Shown here: positions 55,731 through 64,000 of the stretch, piece after piece | Layout of the letters: each line of letters starts with the position of its first letter | Position numbering within the stretch: position 1 is the first letter of the stretch | DNA from: Methylovulum sp. | GTDB taxonomy: Bacteria; Pseudomonadota; Gammaproteobacteria; Methylococcales; Methylomonadaceae | Assembly: GCF_028687615.1 (NCBI RefSeq) | Contig: NZ_JAQTZU010000001.1 | Location: forward strand, 124,001 to 188,000 | Direction of reading: 5' to 3' | Length of the DNA stretch: 64,000 nucleotides | Made by a program: the position numbers and the translations under genes | Notes under the pieces: model-generated | Databases searched by the model: none | What the model was told of the DNA's origin: nothing | Seen by the model: only the letters and a program-made list of their open reading frames with translations

Positions 55731-57620
55731 ATGAGTAACGACTATAACGCCGCTGCGATAGAAGTATTGAGCGGTTTGGAACCAGTGCGCAAACGCCCGG
55801 GCATGTACACGGACACCACCCGCCCCAACCATTTGGTGCAGGAAGTGGTGGATAACAGCGTTGATGAAGCGATGGCAGGACACGCCACCCGCATCGAAGT
55901 GGTTTTATTGAAAGACGGCGGCGTGTCGGTATCTGACAATGGGCGCGGGATGCCGGTTGACCTGCATCCCGAACAAGGCATCCCTGGCGTGGAAGTGATT
56001 TTGACCCAGCTCCATGCGGGCGGCAAGTTTTCCAATAAAAACTACCAGTTTTCCGGGGGCCTACATGGGGTTGGCGCGTCGGTGGTCAATGCCTTGTCGG
56101 CAAAATTGGAAGTGGAAGTCAAGCGCAATGGCAAGGTCTACCGTATGACGTTTGCCGATGGTGACAAACAAAGCGAGTTGGCGGAAATCGGCACGGTGGG
56201 CAAAAACAATACCGGCACAATGGTCAAATTCTGGCCTAACGAAAAATATTTTGATTCCAACAAAATCTCTGTATCGCGGCTAAAACACAATCTACGCGCC
56301 AAGGCGGTGTTATGCCCTGGCCTGAAAGTGATTTTAAAAATCGAAGCGAGCGAAGAACATGTCGAGTGGTATTACCAAGACGGCTTAAAAGATTATTTGC
56401 TGGACAGGATCGGTCAGGTGGAATTTTTCCCCGAACAACCGTTTATGGGCAATAGCGCCGCCAATCATGAAGCGGTGGAATGGGGCGTGGTGTGGGCGGT
56501 GGAGAATGACTCGGAAGTGTTGGCGGAAAGTTACGTCAATCTGGTGCCGACCGCGCAAGGCGGCACCCACGTCAACGGTTTGCGGGCGGGTTTGACCGAG
56601 GCGATGCGCGAGTTTTGCGATTTGCGCAATATCCTGCCGCGTGGCGTGAAAGTCGCCCCGGAAGATGTCTGGGAAAATTGCCATTTCGTCTTGTCGGTGA
56701 AATTGCAAGACCCGCAGTTTTCAGGGCAGACCAAAGAACGGTTAAGCTCGCGGGAATGCGTCGCCTTTGTCTCCGGCGTGGCGAAGGACACGTTCAGTTT
56801 GTGGCTGAACCAACATCCTGCGGAAGGTGAAAAAATCGCCGAAGTGATTATCGCCAGTGCACAAAAACGCCTGCGCTCGAATAAAAAAATCATCCGCAAA
56901 AAAATCACCGCCGGGCCCGCGTTGCCAGGCAAATTGGCGGATTGTTCGGCGCAGGACATAGCCCGCACTGAATTGTTTTTGGTCGAAGGCGACTCGGCGG
57001 GCGGTTCGGCGAAACAAGCCCGCGAACGCGACTTCCAGGCCATCATGCCTTTGCGCGGCAAGATTTTGAACACCTGGGAAGTGGAATCCACCCAAGTCAT
57101 GGCTTCGCAAGAAGTGCATGACATTGCCGTGGCCTTGGGCATTGAACCGGGTTCGGATGATTTGCACAACCTGCGTTACGGCAAAGTCTGCATCCTCGCC
57201 GATGCCGATTCCGACGGCAACCATATCGCCACCTTGATTTGCGCCTTGTTTTACCAGCATTTCCAACCGCTGGTCAAAGCCGGGCATGTGTTTGTCGCGA
57301 TGCCGCCTTTGTATCGGATTGATGTCGGCAAGCGGGTGTTTTACGCGCTGGACGAATCGGAACGTTTGGGGGTTTTGGACAGGATCAAGGCGGAAAAATT
57401 GAAAGGGACTATCAATGTCCAGCGTTTTAAAGGTTTGGGCGAGATGAACCCGTCACAATTGCGGGAAACCACGATGAACCCCGACACCCGCCGCTTGGTG
57501 CAATTGACGATTGCCGAAGATGACGAAACCAGCGGGCAATTGGATTTGTTGCTGGCGAAAAAACGCTCTCAAGATCGGAAAGCGTGGTTGGAAATCAAGG
57601 GCAATTTGGCGGATGTGTGA
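55731..57620 (+). CDS. parE: DNA topoisomerase IV subunit B
   Basis: A 629-residue type IIA topoisomerase subunit that powers decatenation. GHKL ATPase motifs are HLVQEVVDNSVDEAMAGHA (near 40), SDNGRGMPV and GGLHGVGASVVNALS; the TOPRIM part shows LVEGDSAGGSAKQAR (near 417), PLRGKILN and DADSDGNHIATL. The ParE-like C-terminus ends without the long GyrB insertion. The length matches E. coli ParE (630). parC is not within the window. Confidence 0.95.
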   Translation: MSNDYNAAAIEVLSGLEPVRKRPGMYTDTTRPNHLVQEVVDNSVDEAMAGHATRIEVVLLKDGGVSVSDNGRGMPVDLHPEQGIPGVEVILTQLHAGGKFSNKNYQFSGGLHGVGASVVNALSAKLEVEVKRNGKVYRMTFADGDKQSELAEIGTVGKNNTGTMVKFWPNEKYFDSNKISVSRLKHNLRAKAVLCPGLKVILKIEASEEHVEWYYQDGLKDYLLDRIGQVEFFPEQPFMGNSAANHEAVEWGVVWAVENDSEVLAESYVNLVPTAQGGTHVNGLRAGLTEAMREFCDLRNILPRGVKVAPEDVWENCHFVLSVKLQDPQFSGQTKERLSSRECVAFVSGVAKDTFSLWLNQHPAEGEKIAEVIIASAQKRLRSNKKIIRKKITAGPALPGKLADCSAQDIARTELFLVEGDSAGGSAKQARERDFQAIMPLRGKILNTWEVESTQVMASQEVHDIAVALGIEPGSDDLHNLRYGKVCILADADSDGNHIATLICALFYQHFQPLVKAGHVFVAMPPLYRIDVGKRVFYALDESERLGVLDRIKAEKLKGTINVQRFKGLGEMNPSQLRETTMNPDTRRLVQLTIAEDDETSGQLDLLLAKKRSQDRKAWLEIKGNLADV

Positions 57621-57687
57621 ACATAGGACGCGGATGAGAAATCTGGGGGGTGAAGTTTCTGCTCCCCCAGCTTGCAACGTCCCACTA

Positions 57688-57862
57688 AAAACCGAAAACT
57701 TGGGCGTTTGAAGTATGTACTTCAAACGGTCACGTTTTTGGTTTTTGCAATCTATCGTAGGGTACGCTGTGCGTACCTTTTGCATTGATTTTATGATGAT
57801 TTTTAAAGGTACGCACAGCGTACCCTACCTAAAAACCAAAAACTTGAGCGTTTGCAGTATAT
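57688..57862. repeat. Adjoining family C elements with family D centre
   Basis: A right terminal repeat alone (AAAACCGAAAACTTGGGCG and TTTGAAGTATG, 57688-57718) touches a complete element (57717-57862) whose left end is TACTTCAAACGGTCACG. Inside sit GGGTACGCTGTGCGTACC and its inverse, as in the copy at 36642-36793, and the shared centre ATTGATTTTATGATGATTTTT, inverted, shows that the two copies have one origin. Confidence 0.75.
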
Positions 57863-57864
57863 CC

Positions 57865-58542
57865 TCAAGCCAAGACCAATAACGATGAAACCACATCAAA
57901 ATACACATCCAGCAGGGATGACAAGGTATTGCGGTACAGTGCCTGGAAAGTCGCTGACGGTTGCGCCATCAACAAACTGAAAAAATCCGCCAACGCATAG
58001 TAACTGCCGGTCAAAACCGCTTCCGCCTCGTCGCTAAGCGAGCTTAGGTAAGCGGTTATGGGCGCGAAGGTCGTGCTGACAAACAATTCAGGATTTTCCA
58101 TGAACGCTTGCCAATAGCGTGCTGATTGATCGGCAACATCCGCCACATAACGGCTTACCGGTTCAAACGTAGCCACCGTCACCTGTTCGGGATTATCCCA
58201 AAAAGCTTGCAAATATTGCCCCGCCTGTTCCTTGCCCGCACTCAGCTTGACTTGCCAGTCCTGATAAATGGGTGACACCGTGCCTTGGACTTGGGCATAC
58301 AAAACCTTGCTAGAATTGGCGGATTGTTCATACCAAGCGGTCAGCGTGGGTATCGGTTGCTCGTAAACCTGTTTGGCGGCGCCCGCGACAAAACGATGGG
58401 CATCAATCAACGCGTTACGAATATCCTGGTACAAACTGTTAAGCTGGAAACTGACTTGGCTCAACAGCTTTTGAGTCGGCAAAATGAGCTTGTTGTCCAG
58501 GTCTAGCTGGCGAAAAGCCAAAAAATCCGATGGATTCCACAT
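57865..58542 (-). CDS. Unknown helical protein
   Basis: A 225-residue protein starting MWNPSDFLAFRQLD at ATG 58542, preceded by GAGGGA at 7 bases; the TTG at 58557 is less likely. It is almost entirely helical with repeated aromatic-Pro patterns: FWDNPEQVTVATFEPVSRYV and FMENPELFVSTTFAPITAYL are internal repeats about 40 residues apart. No signal peptide or clear membrane span. The pattern recalls phasin-like or apolipoprotein-like lipid- or granule-surface proteins, but no family is recognised. Confidence 0.65.
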   Translation of the reverse strand: MWNPSDFLAFRQLDLDNKLILPTQKLLSQVSFQLNSLYQDIRNALIDAHRFVAGAAKQVYEQPIPTLTAWYEQSANSSKVLYAQVQGTVSPIYQDWQVKLSAGKEQAGQYLQAFWDNPEQVTVATFEPVSRYVADVADQSARYWQAFMENPELFVSTTFAPITAYLSSLSDEAEAVLTGSYYALADFFSLLMAQPSATFQALYRNTLSSLLDVYFDVVSSLLVLA

Positions 58543-58756
58543 GAATATGTCCCTCAATTAATAAAGTGTGTACAAAACGGCTGTGTACAAAACGGCTGCG
58601 CGTCCCGATTGCCACGTTCCGTCCGCGACGTTTAGCACGTCCTAAACAATAATCCGTTAGATTCTAGCTTGCCTAGAGGAAATTAAATATGCGACATGAT
58701 GCCGCGCGACAAAATGTCCCAGAAAAACGCGGTGGGGAATCGGTAGGCAAAAAAAA

Positions 58757-58896
58757 TGCGGTTAATACAAATTAACCGCACAAAAACTCTTAAACCCTTT
58801 TAGGAGGTGGTGTTTCATTAAGAGTGGGCAGATTTTAGCTTGCGCCCACCCTAATGAAAATATGGCATATTGCCGCGCGGCAGCTTGTCGCAGCCA
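58757..58896 (+). repeat. Conserved structured block, copy 1 (cytochrome operon)
   Basis: About 140 bases with high identity to 62914-63051. It can fold: TGCGGTTAAT/ATTAACCGCA (58757-58766 with 58771-58780), TTTCATTA/TAATGAAA (58813-58820 with 58852-58859) enclosing GTGGGC/GCCCAC (58824-58829 with 58844-58849), and TGCCGCGCGGCA. Conserved single-strand parts are ACTCTTAAA and TTTTAGCTTGCGCC. It may be promoter-associated DNA or an RNA. Confidence 0.65.
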
Positions 58897-58934
58897 AAAC
58901 CTTTACTAAAGCCCCATTCCTGCCACAGCCAATC

Positions 58935-59066
58935 CATACTTTTAAACGGTCACGTTTTCGGTTTTTGGAGCGCGGCCATCTTGGCCGCTTGGCGGGCAGG
59001 ATGCCCGCGCTCCGAGTTGTTGCGCCCTCATTTTAAAAAACCGAAAACGTGACCGTTTGAAGTATA
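58935..59066. repeat. TIR element family C inside the cytochrome regulatory region
   Basis: ATACTTTTAAACGGTCACG and GTTTTCGGTTTTT (58936-58966) face AAAAACCGAAAACGTGACC and GTTTGAAGTAT (59037-59065). The centre is GGAGCGCGGCCATCTTGGCC with GCGCTCC. It separates the conserved block from the activator site, a separation that is 132 bases shorter in the mmoX copy. Confidence 0.7.
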
Positions 59067-59105
59067 GCCCAGCGTCTATTTTATGGTCAGTGTGGTTTTA
59101 TTGAA

Positions 59106-59118
59106 CGTCCATTAATTG
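59106..59118. promoter_or_regulatory. Candidate activator site of the cytochrome operon
   Basis: CGTCCATTAATTG matches 11 of 13 bases of TGTCCATTATTTG at 63120-63132 upstream of mmoX. It begins 101 bases before the -24 GG of its promoter; in front of mmoX the distance is 96. Confidence 0.5.
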
Positions 59119-59204
59119 CCGCTTCAAACACGCCCGCCAAGAAGTCCCGGCCCAGTCCAGCCGCCAAGCCATGCCCTGGAAAATATCGGGTATTTTTTCA
59201 TACA

Positions 59205-59221
59205 AAGGCACAGTTATTGCC
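59205..59221 (+). promoter_or_regulatory. Predicted sigma-54 promoter of the cytochrome operon
   Basis: AAGGCACAGTTATTGCC has GG at 59207-59208, exactly ten bases and GC at 59219-59220, and contains both GGCAC and TTGC of the consensus. Transcription would start near 59232, leaving an 80-base leader before the ATG at 59312. Confidence 0.65.
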
Positions 59222-59311
59222 TAATCACCCGATGTTGTCATGCCGCCGGTTAATTAACCGGACTTAACGCGATGGCGACGGGCTTATTTATTTTATAACT
59301 ACGGGGTAGCC

Positions 59312-60763
59312 ATGGATTTTCCCATTTTTCATATCGATTTTATCGGTAATCGCCTGTTGATTGCCGTCGATGCCATTTTACATGTCCTTATCAACCACGC
59401 TTTCGCGGTCGGCGCATTGCCGGTGGTTGCCTTGCTTGAATTTTTGGGTATGCGTAGCCAAGACCCGCGTTGGGACAATCTGGCGTACCGCCTGTTAAAA
59501 ATCATTTTTATCCTCACCACCACGGTCGGCGCGTTGACCGGCGTCGGCATCTGGTTTTCGGCGGCGCTGGTCAATCCGGCGGCGATAGGCAGTTTGATCC
59601 GGGTGTTTTTCTGGGGCTGGTTTGTCGAATGGCTCGTGTTTGTCTGTGAAGTCAGCCTGATCATGGCGTATTTTTTGAGCTGGCAAACGGCAAACCGCTC
59701 ACCCGAAACCAAGTTAAAACACCTGCGCCTGGGGATTTTCCTGGCAGTTTTCTCATGGATCACTATGGCGATTATCGTCGCCATCCTCGGCTTTATGATG
59801 GACCCGGGCAATTGGCTGACCGAACGGACCTTACTGTCCGGTCTGTTCAACCCCATGTATTTTCCGCAATTGGCACTGCGAACTACATTGGCTATGGTGA
59901 TGGGCGGCATCACGATGATTTGCCTAAGCTATTGGCACACCCGGGATGACCGTGGCTTCCGCGCGACGGTTACGGAAGTTTTGTCGAAATGGTCGGGGAT
60001 CTGGATGCTGGGCCTGATCGTCGCTTCGGTCTGGTATTATCGCGTGATACCGGAACTTATGCTGGCGAACATCCCGGTGGCCTTCGCCACGCAGGAATAT
60101 GCCGGCTGGAACGGCAGGTTAAAAGTGCTGCTGATAGTCGGCTTGATGTATGTCAGCCGGATTTTATGGGTGTCGGTCAAACGCCCAGGCCAAGTGCATG
60201 GCGCAAAGTACCTGGTTTCGGCGCTGCTGCTGTTTGCGATGCTGGGGCAATTCGAGCGGGTGCGGGAATTTATCCGCAAGCCCTTCATCATCGGCAATTA
60301 CATGTATGCCAATGGCATCCGTGTCGAAGATTACCCGCTGTTGCAACGCGACGGCATCCTGCAACATGCCACTTACGCCAGTATCCGCGAAGTGACCGCC
60401 GACAACCAGCCCGCTGCCGGCCGCGAGGTGTTTGAACAAGCCTGCACTCGTTGCCATACCGTCAACGGCGTCAACAGCATACGCGGCCAGTTGAAAAACA
60501 TGTACGGCGATAAGCCCTGGCAGTCTGAAGCCATTGCCGCCTACATTGAAAACATGCACGGCGCCCGTTATTTCATGCCGCCGTTTCCTGGCAATAAGGC
60601 CGAGCTGAACGCGCTTTCTGTTTATTTGGCTTCGTTGCAAAAACGGGCCGCCCCGTTCAACGGCGCGCAAATCAACGGCATCCCCAAACCCGATCACATT
60701 TCCACGGCAATCAGTTACGGAATTTTGCCCAATCTGGGCATTCACCACGGAGAACAACGCTAA
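59312..60763 (+). CDS. CydA-like membrane protein fused to a monoheme cytochrome c
   Basis: A 483-residue protein. Residues 1-340 form about eight spans resembling the N-terminal part of cytochrome bd subunit I (NRLLIAVDAILHVLINHAFAVG, GVGIWFSAAL, FFWGWFVEWLVFVCEV), with several membrane His that could bind heme b. Residues about 370-450 are a cytochrome c domain with CTRCHTVNG near 386 and a distal Met in RYFMPPFPG. The quinol Q-loop of true CydA is not evident. It probably transfers electrons between quinones and periplasmic cytochromes. It overlaps the next gene by one base. Confidence 0.7.
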   Translation: MDFPIFHIDFIGNRLLIAVDAILHVLINHAFAVGALPVVALLEFLGMRSQDPRWDNLAYRLLKIIFILTTTVGALTGVGIWFSAALVNPAAIGSLIRVFFWGWFVEWLVFVCEVSLIMAYFLSWQTANRSPETKLKHLRLGIFLAVFSWITMAIIVAILGFMMDPGNWLTERTLLSGLFNPMYFPQLALRTTLAMVMGGITMICLSYWHTRDDRGFRATVTEVLSKWSGIWMLGLIVASVWYYRVIPELMLANIPVAFATQEYAGWNGRLKVLLIVGLMYVSRILWVSVKRPGQVHGAKYLVSALLLFAMLGQFERVREFIRKPFIIGNYMYANGIRVEDYPLLQRDGILQHATYASIREVTADNQPAAGREVFEQACTRCHTVNGVNSIRGQLKNMYGDKPWQSEAIAAYIENMHGARYFMPPFPGNKAELNALSVYLASLQKRAAPFNGAQINGIPKPDHISTAISYGILPNLGIHHGEQR

Positions 60764-62067
60764 TGACCGCCCCTATCCCCCGCGATATTCCTTTACCCTT
60801 GCCGGCCCCGGAAGGCTTTCTGGAAATCCTGCTGATTGCATCATTCCTGCTGCATATTATTTTTGTGCATTTAATGGTCGGCGGCTCGCTGTTCAGCCTG
60901 GCGTGTCAAATCAAGGGCCTGAAAGCGCCGGATTATGAAAAGCTGGCTTACCGCATCATGCAGACGGTCACGGTCAATAAAAGCCTGGCCGTGGTCATGG
61001 GCGTCGCGCCGCTGCTGATTATCAACACGCTCTACGCGCCGCAGTTTTATGCGTCCAGCGCGCTGATCGGCGATATGTGGATGGCGATTATCCCGATGGT
61101 GACGCTGGCATTTTTATTGGCTTACCTGCATAAATTCTGGTGGCATCATTTTATCAACTTACCCGAACTGCACATCGGTATTGCCGCTTTGGAGACCGGG
61201 CTGTTTTTATTCATCCCGCTGATTTTCATGACCAATGTCAACCTGATGCTGTTTCCTGAATATTGGCCGGAAGTCAAAGGCTTCCTATCTGCCATGCTGC
61301 TGCCGAATGTGTTGCAACGTTATCTGCATTTTCTGTCGGCCAGCGTTTTGTTCACGGCCTTGTTTTTTGTTGGCTGGACGGGGCGCAAACGCTTTCAGGA
61401 AGAGGCGGGATTCAACGAACTGAAAATCATCACGGTACGCCGCTTTTTTTATGCCTACGCCTTCGGGGCCGCTATTTTTCAAATCCTGACCGGACTAATG
61501 GCCTTGGCCTCCTTGCCGACCCAGGGCATGGGCTGGAATTTTATTCTGATATTGACCTTCGGCGGCGCGTTGGCATTGCCGGCCTTGTGGTGGATGTGGC
61601 GTAACCTGACCCAACCCAGCCATTTGCTGGATGATGATTTTAAGCGGATTATCGCCTGCTTTGCTTGCGCCGCCATTTTTATGGGCATCGCCCGTCATGA
61701 GTACCGCGAAAACGCCTTGGCTGACCATAAAACCGCCATCAGCGAAAAAACCGCCAACTATCAGGCCGCCGTTAAAGAAGCCGGCGAACAGGCGCGACAA
61801 ACGGCCAAAAAACCGGAAGGCATCGTCTCAGCCCCAGGAGAAAGCGCGTTTAACAAAAACTGCGCGGCATGCCACCACGCCACATTGCCCACCGTAGGGC
61901 CGGCCTTGCAGGAAATTAAAACCCTCTACGCGGACAATCCGTCCGGCATTGTGGTTTGGACTAAAGCGCCCGGCAAAAAACGCGCGGACAGCATGACCAT
62001 GCCCGGCTTTCCCCAATTAAGCGATGAGGAGTTGACCGCTATCAGCCAATACATACTCAAGCATTGA
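60763..62067 (+). CDS. Polytopic membrane protein with C-terminal cytochrome c
   Basis: A 434-residue partner of the preceding gene: about eight spans (first at 20-45, ILLIASFLLHIIFVHLMVGG, with His) followed by an Ala/Lys-rich linker (about 310-345) and a cytochrome c domain with CAACHH near 363 and a Met in SMTMPGFPQLSDEE near 412. The two proteins share the order membrane bundle then c-heme, so they may form a heterodimer. No CydB or CydX gene is seen. Its function is not established. Confidence 0.7.
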   Translation: MTAPIPRDIPLPLPAPEGFLEILLIASFLLHIIFVHLMVGGSLFSLACQIKGLKAPDYEKLAYRIMQTVTVNKSLAVVMGVAPLLIINTLYAPQFYASSALIGDMWMAIIPMVTLAFLLAYLHKFWWHHFINLPELHIGIAALETGLFLFIPLIFMTNVNLMLFPEYWPEVKGFLSAMLLPNVLQRYLHFLSASVLFTALFFVGWTGRKRFQEEAGFNELKIITVRRFFYAYAFGAAIFQILTGLMALASLPTQGMGWNFILILTFGGALALPALWWMWRNLTQPSHLLDDDFKRIIACFACAAIFMGIARHEYRENALADHKTAISEKTANYQAAVKEAGEQARQTAKKPEGIVSAPGESAFNKNCAACHHATLPTVGPALQEIKTLYADNPSGIVVWTKAPGKKRADSMTMPGFPQLSDEELTAISQYILKH

Positions 62068-62183
62068 CAAACTGGACTCCATTTTTAGGCGGGCTTATCC
62101 CGCCTAAAGCAGATGGCCGACAAACGACAGCGGGAACGCTAAGGATTGGTGCCCACCTACCCCTACAAACTTTAGGCGAACTT

Positions 62184-62492
62184 ATGAGCAGACTTAAACT
62201 TTTACAAGAACAAGCAAACCGCACGGTTGCTAAAACGGCTGAATGTAACAATTCACTAAAGGACGTCCCATCAGACGGACTGCCGCTGACCCAGTATTTC
62301 CAAATCCATTTTCAGCATATTCATGAAAATACCCGGCTTATGCAGGACGAGCTGGTACAGTTTCGGCATCATATCGCAGACCTGAACCTGAAAGTGGAGC
62401 AACTCACGGCATTGTTAATCGAGCAGCAAGCCATGCTCTCAGGCAAGTCTTATCCTCTCGGACAACGAAATGGCAGACATTCAGGACACTGA
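62184..62492 (+). CDS. Small coiled-coil protein of unknown function
   Basis: A 102-residue protein starting MSRLKLLQEQANRTVAKTAE at ATG 62184 with AGGCGAA before it; the frame opens earlier at a TTG inside the end of the cytochrome gene. The middle (LMQDELVQFRHHIADLNLKVEQL) is a coiled coil. It follows the cytochrome pair by 116 bases and may be in the same transcript. No family is recognised. Confidence 0.55.
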   Translation: MSRLKLLQEQANRTVAKTAECNNSLKDVPSDGLPLTQYFQIHFQHIHENTRLMQDELVQFRHHIADLNLKVEQLTALLIEQQAMLSGKSYPLGQRNGRHSGH

Positions 62493-62669
62493 GCCTGGCA
62501 GGCTTGCTGATTTGCCACAGCAGCCTGGTGCGGGCGAGACGCCCGCGCTCCCAGGCTTATTGCCCTAAAATGGCTAGGATTCTGAATAATTATGCAAAAA
62601 CTTGCACGATTATTGCCTTATTATTGGGGATTACATAAAAACACCGCCTAGCGGTAGGCGAAAATTGGC

Positions 62670-62766
62670 TTAGGAATGAGCATGAAATAACTTATGCAAA
62701 TGCGTTCGGTGTAGATGCGGATAAATCCGCGCCTACATCTCGAACTTATTTCATGCTCATTACTTA
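62670..62766. repeat. TIR element family A, copy 3
   Basis: GGAATGAGCATGAAATAA (62673-62690) faces TTATTTCATGCTCATTAC (62746-62763). The centre differs from copies 1 and 2: GTGTAGATGCGG...GCGCCTACATC with GGATAAATCC. The ends are thus conserved while the cargo is exchanged. Confidence 0.7.
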
Positions 62767-62882
62767 GCGGGCATAAGCATCTACACAAGTTTTATTGCTC
62801 GTCATTCTGGCAGGGAGAGCGTAGCGAGGGTTGGCCGGAATGTCGGTGTTCAAGACTTGTGTAGATACCTATGCTTAGCGGG
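62764..62882. repeat. Palindromic element with 8-bp flanking direct repeats
   Basis: TTAGCGGG occurs at 62764-62771 and 62875-62882. Just inside, GCATAAGCATCTACACAAGT faces ACTTGTGTAGATACCTATGC. The interior contains TTCTGGCAGGGAGAGCG and GGCCGGAATG. The direct repeats have the form of a target-site duplication. Confidence 0.55.
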
Positions 62883-62913
62883 AGAACGTTTTCAAGGCTG
62901 TCCCTATAAAAAC

Positions 62914-63051
62914 GCGGCCAATAAGCATTGACCGCATAAAGACTCTTAAAACCCTTTAGGAAGTGGCACTGATTAAGACTACGTTTATTTTAGCTTGCGC
63001 CATCCCTTAAGAAAATACGACATTTTGCCGCGCGGCAGCTTGTCGCAGCCA
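62914..63051 (+). repeat. Conserved structured block, copy 2 (mmoX)
   Basis: About 138 bases similar to 58757-58896: CCGCATAAAGACTCTTAAAA, TTTTAGCTTGCGCCATCCC and TTTTGCCGCGCGGCAGCTTG are nearly the same. The first stem is GCGGCCAAT/ATTGACCGC (62914-62922 with 62927-62935); relative to copy 1 one base pair is changed on both sides (T-A to C-G). It ends 165 bases before the -24 element of the mmoX promoter. Confidence 0.65.
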
Positions 63052-63119
63052 CGCTTTTCCCACCCCGCGCCAATGCCCAAACCCCTTTCCTGCAAACTGG
63101 ACGTTTACTATTTAAACAG

Positions 63120-63136
63120 TGTCCATTATTTGGACA
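63120..63136. promoter_or_regulatory. Candidate activator dyad of mmoX
   Basis: TGTCCATTATTTGGACA is a perfect dyad, TGTCCA-N5-TGGACA, centred near 63128, about 113 bases upstream of the expected transcription start. A further half-site TGGACG is at 63098-63103. In known methanotrophs the sigma-54 activator MmoR drives mmoX; whether it binds this dyad is inference. Confidence 0.55.
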
Positions 63137-63213
63137 GTTTTCAGATCAGCCCCGGTTTCCTCTGTTTGCATCCACCTTATTGTTTTATTTAAAGAAACAA
63201 ACTATCAACATGC

Positions 63214-63230
63214 TTGGCACGAGGCTTGCA
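63214..63230 (+). promoter_or_regulatory. Sigma-54 promoter of mmoX
   Basis: TTGGCACGAGGCTTGCA matches the sigma-54 consensus TTGGCACRNNNNTTGCW at every defined position, with GG at 63216-63217 and GC at 63228-63229. The transcription start would be near 63241, giving a leader of about 146 bases. Sigma-54 promoters of mmoX are established in Methylosinus and Methylococcus. Confidence 0.9.
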
Positions 63231-63386
63231 CCAGGCAAATCAGGTCATCATCCAGCCATTGGGAACCCGCATTAAGACGTGCCAAGCCAAGGTTTACAAA
63301 ATTTTGCAAAGTTTTACAACGTTTTGCAAAGTGATGATGGCCTATTTAACTTTTGTCTAAAACAATAAACATCAGGAGTAGTCTCT

Positions 63387-64000
63387 ATGGCTATCAGTGC
63401 AGCAACAAAAGCGGCGACGGATGCTCTCGCCGTCAACCGCGCACCCGTCAGTGTGGGCGCGCAAGAAGTCCACAGATGGATGCAAAGCTTTACTTGGGAT
63501 TTTGAAAAAAACCGCACCAAGTATTCGACCAAATACAAAATGGCGAATGACACCAAAGAGCAGTTCAAGCTGATCGCTAAAGAATATGCGCGTATGGAGT
63601 CGGTTAAGGACGAACGCCAATTCGGCAGCTTGCAAGACGTATTGACCCGCGTTGACGCCGCCAACCGTGTGCATCCAAAATGGAATGAGTCCATGAAAGT
63701 GATTTCCAACTTTTTGGAAGTGGGCGAATACAACGCGATTGCCGGAACCGGCATGTTATGGGATTCGGCGACTGCGCCTGAACAAAAAAATGGTTATTTA
63801 GGCCAGGTGTTGGATGAAATCCGCCACACTAACCAATGCGGTTACGTCAACTATTACTTCGCCAAACAAGGCCAGGATGCCGCCGGACATAACGATGCCC
63901 GCCGCACCCGCGCCATCGGCCCGTTGTGGAAAGGCATGAAACGGGTGTTTTCTGACGGTTTCATTTCCGGTGATGCCGTGGAATGTTCCATCAACTTGCA
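63387..64000 (+). CDS. mmoX: Soluble methane monooxygenase hydroxylase alpha subunit (5' part)
   Basis: The first 204 codons are in the window. The protein (MAISAATKAATDALAVNRAP...) follows Methylococcus MmoX closely and without gaps. Di-iron ligands Glu114 (FLEVGEYNAIA), Glu144 and His147 (LDEIRHTNQC) are present, as is the active-site Cys151. The second half-site (Glu209, Glu243, His246) lies beyond the end. The enzyme oxidises methane to methanol with O2 and NADH under copper limitation. AGGAG (63374-63378) stands 8 bases before the ATG. mmoYBZDC are expected to follow. Confidence 0.97.
   Translation, partial: MAISAATKAATDALAVNRAPVSVGAQEVHRWMQSFTWDFEKNRTKYSTKYKMANDTKEQFKLIAKEYARMESVKDERQFGSLQDVLTRVDAANRVHPKWNESMKVISNFLEVGEYNAIAGTGMLWDSATAPEQKNGYLGQVLDEIRHTNQCGYVNYYFAKQGQDAAGHNDARRTRAIGPLWKGMKRVFSDGFISGDAVECSINL

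Follow-up and report, generated by a model that had tools for sequence, protein, structure and literature searches.

Predicted small-RNA genes and mmoX-type promoter sites at a cytochrome bd-like operon next to mmoX in Methylovulum sp.

Organization of the locus

We analyzed a stretch of 64,000 nucleotides from a Methylovulum genome (contig NZ_JAQTZU010000001.1, positions 124,001 to 188,000; termed the window in the following), in which two cytochrome genes, cytA and cytB, precede mmoX of the soluble methane monooxygenase (sMMO). A first-pass annotation had noticed that the regions upstream of cytA and mmoX resemble each other and had proposed that the cytochrome pair probably belongs to the sMMO regulon and may be of use at low copper. 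Our analysis points to a predicted small-RNA gene on the opposite strand within this resemblance and, separately, to candidate mmoX-type control sites in front of a cytochrome bd-like operon. The features on which this rests are as follows (R1, covariance model of the small RNA described below; aa, amino acids).

58749-58829, minus strand: predicted small RNA 1 (R1 93.8 bits, fold z −3.89, covariation; ends approximate)
58832-58837, minus strand: −10 box TAAAAT of small RNA 1 (TANNNT rule in family members)
58871-58891, minus strand: dyad GCGACA-N3-TGCCGCGCGGCA upstream of small RNA 1 (site search)
59082-59110, plus strand: candidate MmoR site, mmoX-type, upstream of the cytochrome pair (rank 4 of 127,944; 10/10 close cytA loci)
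59205-59221, plus strand: sigma-54 promoter candidate of the cytochrome pair, GG-N10-GC (rank 13; conserved in close loci)
59312-60763, plus strand: cytA, bd subunit I-like with C-terminal c-type heme domain (5doq_A, fold, Pfam cytochrome c)
60763-62067, plus strand: cytB, second bd-fold subunit with C-terminal c-type heme domain (fold, Pfam cytochrome c)
62905-62985, minus strand: predicted small RNA 2, paralogue of RNA 1 (R1 72.8 bits at C43:186905-186984, fold z −2.04; ends approximate)
62987-62992, minus strand: −10 box TAAAAT of small RNA 2 (TANNNT rule in family members)
63026-63046, minus strand: dyad upstream of small RNA 2 (site search)
63111-63139, plus strand: mmoX upstream site (rank 1 of 127,944)
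63214-63230, plus strand: mmoX sigma-54 promoter (rank 2 of 127,962)
63387-64000, plus strand: mmoX, continuing past the window (PF02332; full open reading frame (ORF) of 527 aa in L021)

The repeated block is a predicted small-RNA gene

The two copies of the block comprise positions 58752-58896 and 62908-63051, share about 79% identity and align locally with a score of 140, compared to a maximum of 31 among 200 dinucleotide shuffles. The block of ~140 bases previously described ahead of 59312 and 63387 is thus real and slightly longer than noted. A third full copy, 73-77% identical, occupies the space between two ORFs that converge on it (C45:3073-3213), giving three full copies in the whole genome (3.49 Mb, 56 contigs). 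Aligning the two upstream regions in full, as had been proposed, bore out the similarity of the block but not of the remainder, as the cytochrome and mmoX regions excluding the block are not alignable (score 20; matched by 93 of 200 shuffles). The motif GTCCATTA, taken earlier as a second shared element, is present at 59107 and 63121, but at chance level: it is one of two 8-mers common to both regions, where shuffles share 2.06 on average and 78% of them share at least one. We therefore rejected it as a shared motif, and the spacing argument built on it carries no weight as written. Subtracting the insert at 58935-59066 within that argument was reasonable, because this palindromic insert is a dispersed repeat, matched 76 times across the genome. 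Positions 57685-57865 belong to the same repeat family with conserved ends, the 76 matches having been counted for 58935-59066.

The block had been interpreted as a promoter part of both operons. It is instead predicted to be a minus-strand small-RNA gene, present twice in the window and oriented divergently from both the cytochrome pair and mmoX. The gene plan along this strand consists of an upstream dyad, a −10 box, a C-rich anti-Shine-Dalgarno loop and an intrinsic terminator, with the common form GCGRCA-N3-TGNCGCGCGRCA for the dyad, TANNNT for the −10 box, a stem CUCUUAA...UUAAGAG closing the loop ACCUCCUAAAGG, and a GC-rich hairpin preceding a U run. Predicted small RNA 1 carries a 5' stem-loop with the loop CACCUCCUAAAAGG and the terminator 3' of this stem-loop. 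An own promoter, a conserved structure and an intrinsic terminator, the features by which a trans-acting small RNA is recognized, are all found here as predictions from the sequence.

We gathered 33 family members from related genomes by similarity to the block, so that the following counts describe these members and do not test them. The −10 box TANNNT lies at most 9 nucleotides (nt) from the RNA start in 33/33, the strict dyad pattern occurs in 25/33 and one of four C-rich strings in 31/33. In an alignment of 17 members 96.0% of the cells are paired, a value reached by none of 500 shuffles, whereas slid versions of the same alignment reach just 31-53%. Two-sided changes are found at 7 of 21 pairs, reached by 4 of 500 shuffles, and the single-sequence fold z-scores of six members range from −1.97 to −4.74. 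Three points weigh against the small-RNA gene. The dyad common to the 33 members is not independent evidence, since the members were found via the block; the number of further pair types is unexceptional (reached by 85 of 500 shuffles); and the covariation lies almost wholly within the terminator stem. The alignment supports the terminator stem by covariation.

The covariance model R1, built on 17 rows including both window copies, detects the small RNA in 32 of 201 genomes sampled from the order, each of the 32 belonging to the window's own family, under stricter filters. A DNA search for the block gave some match in 40 of 101 genomes, many to the dyad part alone. Rfam yielded nothing at gathering level in 57600-64000 or in the loci of six relatives, and the matches listed for 57600-64000 (miRNA families, L20_leader) were dismissed as identities, being far below their gathering scores. 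The suhB/MmgR RNA (RF00519), described from alphaproteobacteria (PMC8401924), gave sub-threshold full-length matches of 27.5 and 24.7 bits to two copies of one relative; the best of these compares with a gathering score of 41, and none was listed for the window copies. The predicted RNAs also resemble the sibling RNAs NmsRA/B of Neisseria, which are reported to be likewise short, homologous, in tandem in some genomes and equipped with anti-Shine-Dalgarno stretches (PMC5362039). The window RNAs differ from NmsRA/B in their promoter dyad, the likeness being one of features. In L044, L035, L050 and L288 small-RNA genes of a second type form tandem arrays with a UAUCCUUCUC linker.

Regarding possible targets, pairing of the RNA with 58 local gene starts (approximate) showed no preference, with cytA ranking 23, cytB 39, mmoX 26 and a neighboring gene of 230 aa 48.

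mmoX-type sites precede the cytochrome pair

The mmoX gene is known to be controlled by sigma-54 and MmoR (PMC5874634). The cytochrome promoter shares its −24/−12 motif and its type of upstream site, and mmoG and mmoR lie downstream of the sMMO genes here. To score such sites we used matrices derived from the mmoX promoters of other genomes. The sigma-54 matrix is based on 17 genomes and was applied to 127,962 window positions. The 29-base upstream-site matrix, from mmoX promoters only, is based on 15 of 25 other genomes (no sigma-54 call in G029, G129, G155, G200, G232 and G216, no dyad call in G161 and fen_1212; G034 and G242 left out too). With the former, the mmoX promoter ranks second and the cytochrome promoter 13th; within its own upstream region the latter is equalled by 5 of 300 shuffles. 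With the latter matrix, ranks 1-3 are taken by the own site of mmoX in overlapping or reversed registers, and the fourth, best non-mmoX, position is 59082-59110, which overlaps the place of GTCCATTA in another register. Of the two sigma-54 promoters proposed earlier, both strings are present and GG-N10-GC is kept in 10/10 close cytA loci, but the cytochrome score is modest. In all of these 10 loci, window included, the mmoX-type site and the sigma-54 site occur at the same place. The known reach of sigma-54/MmoR control may extend to the oxidase operon here.

Several observations weigh against this extension. Eleven non-mmoX positions of the window outscore the cytochrome sigma-54 site, and some orthologues score weakly, for sigma-54 in WBIL19 (57 of 300 shuffles as good) and STB140 (8 of 300) and for the dyad in fen_1212 (25 of 500) and koyamae (68 of 500). 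The count of 10 loci is inflated by near-identical pairs (G198/M. psychrophilus; STB140/C3a), and the regular expression for the dyad behind it was written after the sequences had been seen. In M. buryatense 5G, where cytA adjoins mmoX, these matrices find neither site. The distant loci of M. lenta, M. koyamae and OWC_0100 contain good sigma-54 matches at other distances, accompanied by a good dyad in lenta and OWC_0100 and a poor one in koyamae.

The cytochrome pair resembles a copper-free cbd oxidase

CytA matches subunit I of bd oxidases in profile searches (5doq_A, E 6.9e-9) and by predicted fold in Foldseek (6rx4_A, E 2.9e-5), the mean predicted local distance difference test (pLDDT) values of the models being 79.0 for CytA and 83.1 for CytB. 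Read by hand, the alignment places H24, E106 and E113 of CytA opposite H21, E101 and E108 of 5doq, and H186 opposite F189. In E. coli numbering CytA displays the features of the cbd subgroup, with His19, Glu99 and Glu108 kept, His186 lost and a C-terminal CXXCH. This motif is found in 50/50 CytA and 36/47 CytB homologues; the remaining 11 of the 47 aligned cytB homologues lack it. For CytA, the cytochrome c part alone exceeded the Pfam threshold, and no CydA model was reported. Weighing against the assignment, the fold match of CytB to bd structures is weak (best E 6.9e-4, template modelling score 0.44). Taken together, the homology marks the pair as a cytochrome bd-like, c-heme 'cbd' oxidase of the copper-free kind, whose predicted activity would be that of a cytochrome c:O2 oxidoreductase working without copper. 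Pairs at ~50% identity to cytA-cytB also occur in Bacteroidota, Alphaproteobacteria and others (L145-L224).

The closest described system is MCA1187-1186-1185 of Methylococcus capsulatus Bath, likewise bd-like with a C-terminal c heme, near the sMMO genes and reported to be induced in sMMO-producing copper-limited cells (PMC4831470). MCA1187, for which the pattern seen in CytA is described, was proposed as a copper-independent 'cytochrome cbd' and is reported 28.3-fold up in sMMO-producing cells, in which caa3 expression falls (PMC4831470). In five genomes which we infer to be Methylococcus from their MCA1185-1187-like gene order and mmoX (f4/g32: G063, G075, G078, G093, G099), a CytA homologue is located 7.6-19.5 kb from mmoX, and the operon order fits MCA1187-1186-1185 in both genomes inspected (G099, G063). 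CytA of the window is 29% identical to the G099 protein, its likeness to MCA1187 itself being one by description. The two systems differ in that CytB of the window has a c heme whereas its G099 counterpart is devoid of CXXCH, and in that the window pair is preceded by mmoX-type sites and the G099 operon by the small-RNA dyad.

Co-occurrence of cytA with mmoX

Among 237 genomes of the family, cytA is present in 16 and mmoX in 54. Thirteen of the 16 cytA genomes contain mmoX, and the three without it are 75-83% complete. Restricted to near-complete genomes, mmoX is found in 10/10 cytA genomes compared to 45/173 overall, corresponding to a probability of 6e-7 if the genomes were independent, which they are not; this relatedness weighs against counting the co-occurrence as 10 independent events. 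In G198, G112 and G129, cytA and mmoX lie far apart on one contig.

This distribution bears on a different view of the promoter, namely that it is a real sigma-54 promoter served by another enhancer-binding protein, or that the pair has another role and is linked to sMMO by joint inheritance within gene clusters. We consider this unlikely, although it would accommodate the M. buryatense pair beside mmoX without either site, the difference of ~20 bases in site-to-promoter spacing between cytA and mmoX in the window, and the wide spread of homologous pairs in bacteria, for example in Bacteroidota. Against it, a site model derived from mmoX picks out 59082-59110, the genes co-occur even where their loci are far apart, and a related operon is reported to be induced in sMMO cells (PMC4831470). 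Thus, the cytochrome pair probably belongs to the sMMO regulon. The conclusion of the first-pass annotation, including the low-copper use, is probably right because of the mmoX-type sites and their recurrence, the co-occurrence, the bd likeness and the induction of MCA1187, and not because of the block and GTCCATTA, on which it had partly been based.

Conserved neighborhood of the small RNA

The remaining features of the locus are as follows.

57865-58557, minus strand: 230-aa gene of no known family (synteny; adjoins the small RNA in many relatives)
58661-58666, minus strand: −10-like TAGAAT of the 230-aa gene (read from the sequence; relatives arranged alike)
58691-58720, minus strand: small-RNA-type dyad before the 230-aa gene (C43 sites 182691-182711, plus, and 182700-182720, minus)
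58935-59066, no strand assigned: dispersed palindromic repeat inserted between the block and cytA (76 matches in its own genome)
62184-62492, plus strand: 102-aa ORF downstream of cytB (44-57% identity beside cytB in several relatives)

The 102-aa ORF has no Pfam or NCBIfam match, and the 230-aa protein none at 0.001, with only chance-level Pfam matches up to E 10. An early 'phasin' label for the latter, together with the parallel to MmgR and phasins, was dropped, as no family supported it.

In the loci of relatives the small RNA and the 230-aa gene are often together and often beside sMMO. The order of 230-aa gene, RNA, cytochrome pair, second RNA and mmoX is shared by the window and Methylobacter fen_1212; M. 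psychrophilus lacks the second RNA, and in M. tundripaludum OWC-G53F the cytochrome pair is found beyond the 230-aa gene. It is this synteny that accounts for the matching upstream regions noticed initially. The proposed search for the block before cytochrome homologues elsewhere accordingly had a mixed outcome, as fen_1212 displays the order of the window but cytA of M. tundripaludum has no copy before it. Among 38 mmoX loci, 15, representing five genera, carry the RNA in divergent orientation, its 5' end being located 369-637 nt away from the mmoX start codon; mmoX promoters without a small RNA keep the sigma-54 site. In G022 a short mmoX-like remnant (L090 8796-9080; 75% identity over <100 aa) lies beside the small RNA and the 230-aa gene; this genome is otherwise without an mmoX match, and the remnant is possibly a decayed sMMO locus. 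G158 has two mmoX copies (C105:31944, C17:44762), with the small RNA upstream of the C17 copy only.

The same loci allow two other views of the block to be weighed. Were it a cis element, an enhancer or promoter part common to the cytochrome and mmoX operons, its position upstream of both in the window and within 637 nt of mmoX in 15/38 loci would be expected. However, in 23/38 mmoX loci the flank examined contains no copy (at least two of these flanks being cut by contig ends), the third copy lies between converging ORFs, cytA of M. tundripaludum does without, and dyad, −10 box and terminator are ordered along the opposite strand, leaving this view very improbable. A mobile or selfish repeat devoid of regulatory function is, if anything, slightly less probable still: several copies per genome, some in tandem, would suit it, but there are just three full copies in 3.49 Mb compared to 76 matches of the insert repeat, the position beside the 230-aa gene or mmoX is kept, and compensatory changes are present.

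The small-RNA dyad and its candidate regulator

Allowing at most one mismatch, the dyad occurs at six places in the window genome: three belong to RNAs of this type, one to the 230-aa gene and two to further RNA-like genes, judged by eye, on C10 and C9. For the Methylococcus-type genomes a slightly looser pattern was set after one such site had been seen; four of them contain exactly two perfect sites each, one before the cbd operon and the other before a C-rich, RNA-like gene carrying a hairpin that resembles a terminator (by eye). The fifth has the cbd-operon site too, and the G084 locus shows no cbd dyad site. One-mismatch sites in these genomes are partly due to chance, as reversed-pattern controls gave 0-4 matches per strand. 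The dyad before the cbd operon hints at one low-copper or redox network. A dyad with a terminator-like hairpin also precedes a gene with a AIHEAGHAAAIYLGNKQK-like start in three genomes (G000 C9:7241-7270, L285, L295).

The dyad resembles the published RegR motif GNGRCRTTNNGNCGC (PMC5506826), of which a form loosened from TTNN to NNNN is found in 26/33 promoters, and C31 encodes a full-length RegA-like protein adjacent to a kinase. We give even odds to the dyad being bound by a protein outside the RegA/RoxR type, such as a CRP/FNR-like one. The loosened motif and the protein beside its kinase would speak for the RegA/RoxR type. On the other side, this best RegA-like protein scores 192 bits, below the curated cut-off of 250; RegA-type motifs are described as degenerate, with none derivable in Acidithiobacillus (PMC5506826); and the dyad core TTGYCGCGCGRCAA reads as a palindrome of 5-4-5 layout, similar to FNR-type sites.

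Discussion

Our preferred reading of the locus combines two parts, a small-RNA gene in the block and, separately, control of a copper-free cbd oxidase by MmoR and sigma-54 together with sMMO, and we assign it as a whole a probability of about 70%. In the gene model suggested by conservation, a regulator bound at the GCGRCA-type dyad would activate transcription, which would run from the −10 box as far as the terminator, and the RNA would expose a CCUCC loop that could pair with Shine-Dalgarno sequences. As the cytochrome pair is preceded by a sigma-54 promoter candidate of its own and by an mmoX-type upstream site, MmoR and sigma-54 most likely switch it on jointly with sMMO at low copper. Because the cbd kind of oxidase needs no copper, cells moved from the copper-dependent particulate methane monooxygenase to the iron-dependent sMMO could dispense with copper oxidases in respiration as well. 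For M. capsulatus, the cbd oxidase and its response are already described (PMC4831470); mmoX-type control of such an oxidase and this RNA family were not found in the literature searched.

More tentatively, and at odds of only about one in three by our estimate, these elements may form a low-copper or redox network of gammaproteobacterial methanotrophs. One dyad regulator, perhaps of the RegA/RoxR type, would drive anti-Shine-Dalgarno sibling RNAs and, in Methylococcus, also the cbd oxidase; in the family of the window the oxidase would now be under the sMMO activator, with the RNA genes settled beside it, and the RNAs would re-tune translation at the switch to copper-free methane oxidation and respiration.

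In methanotrophs short of copper, the exchange of the methane enzyme is better understood than the rebuilding of electron transport. A conserved pair of sites linking a copper-free oxidase to sMMO makes their joint control directly testable, and the small-RNA family, present in several copies and located beside mmoX, may represent a post-transcriptional arm of the copper switch.

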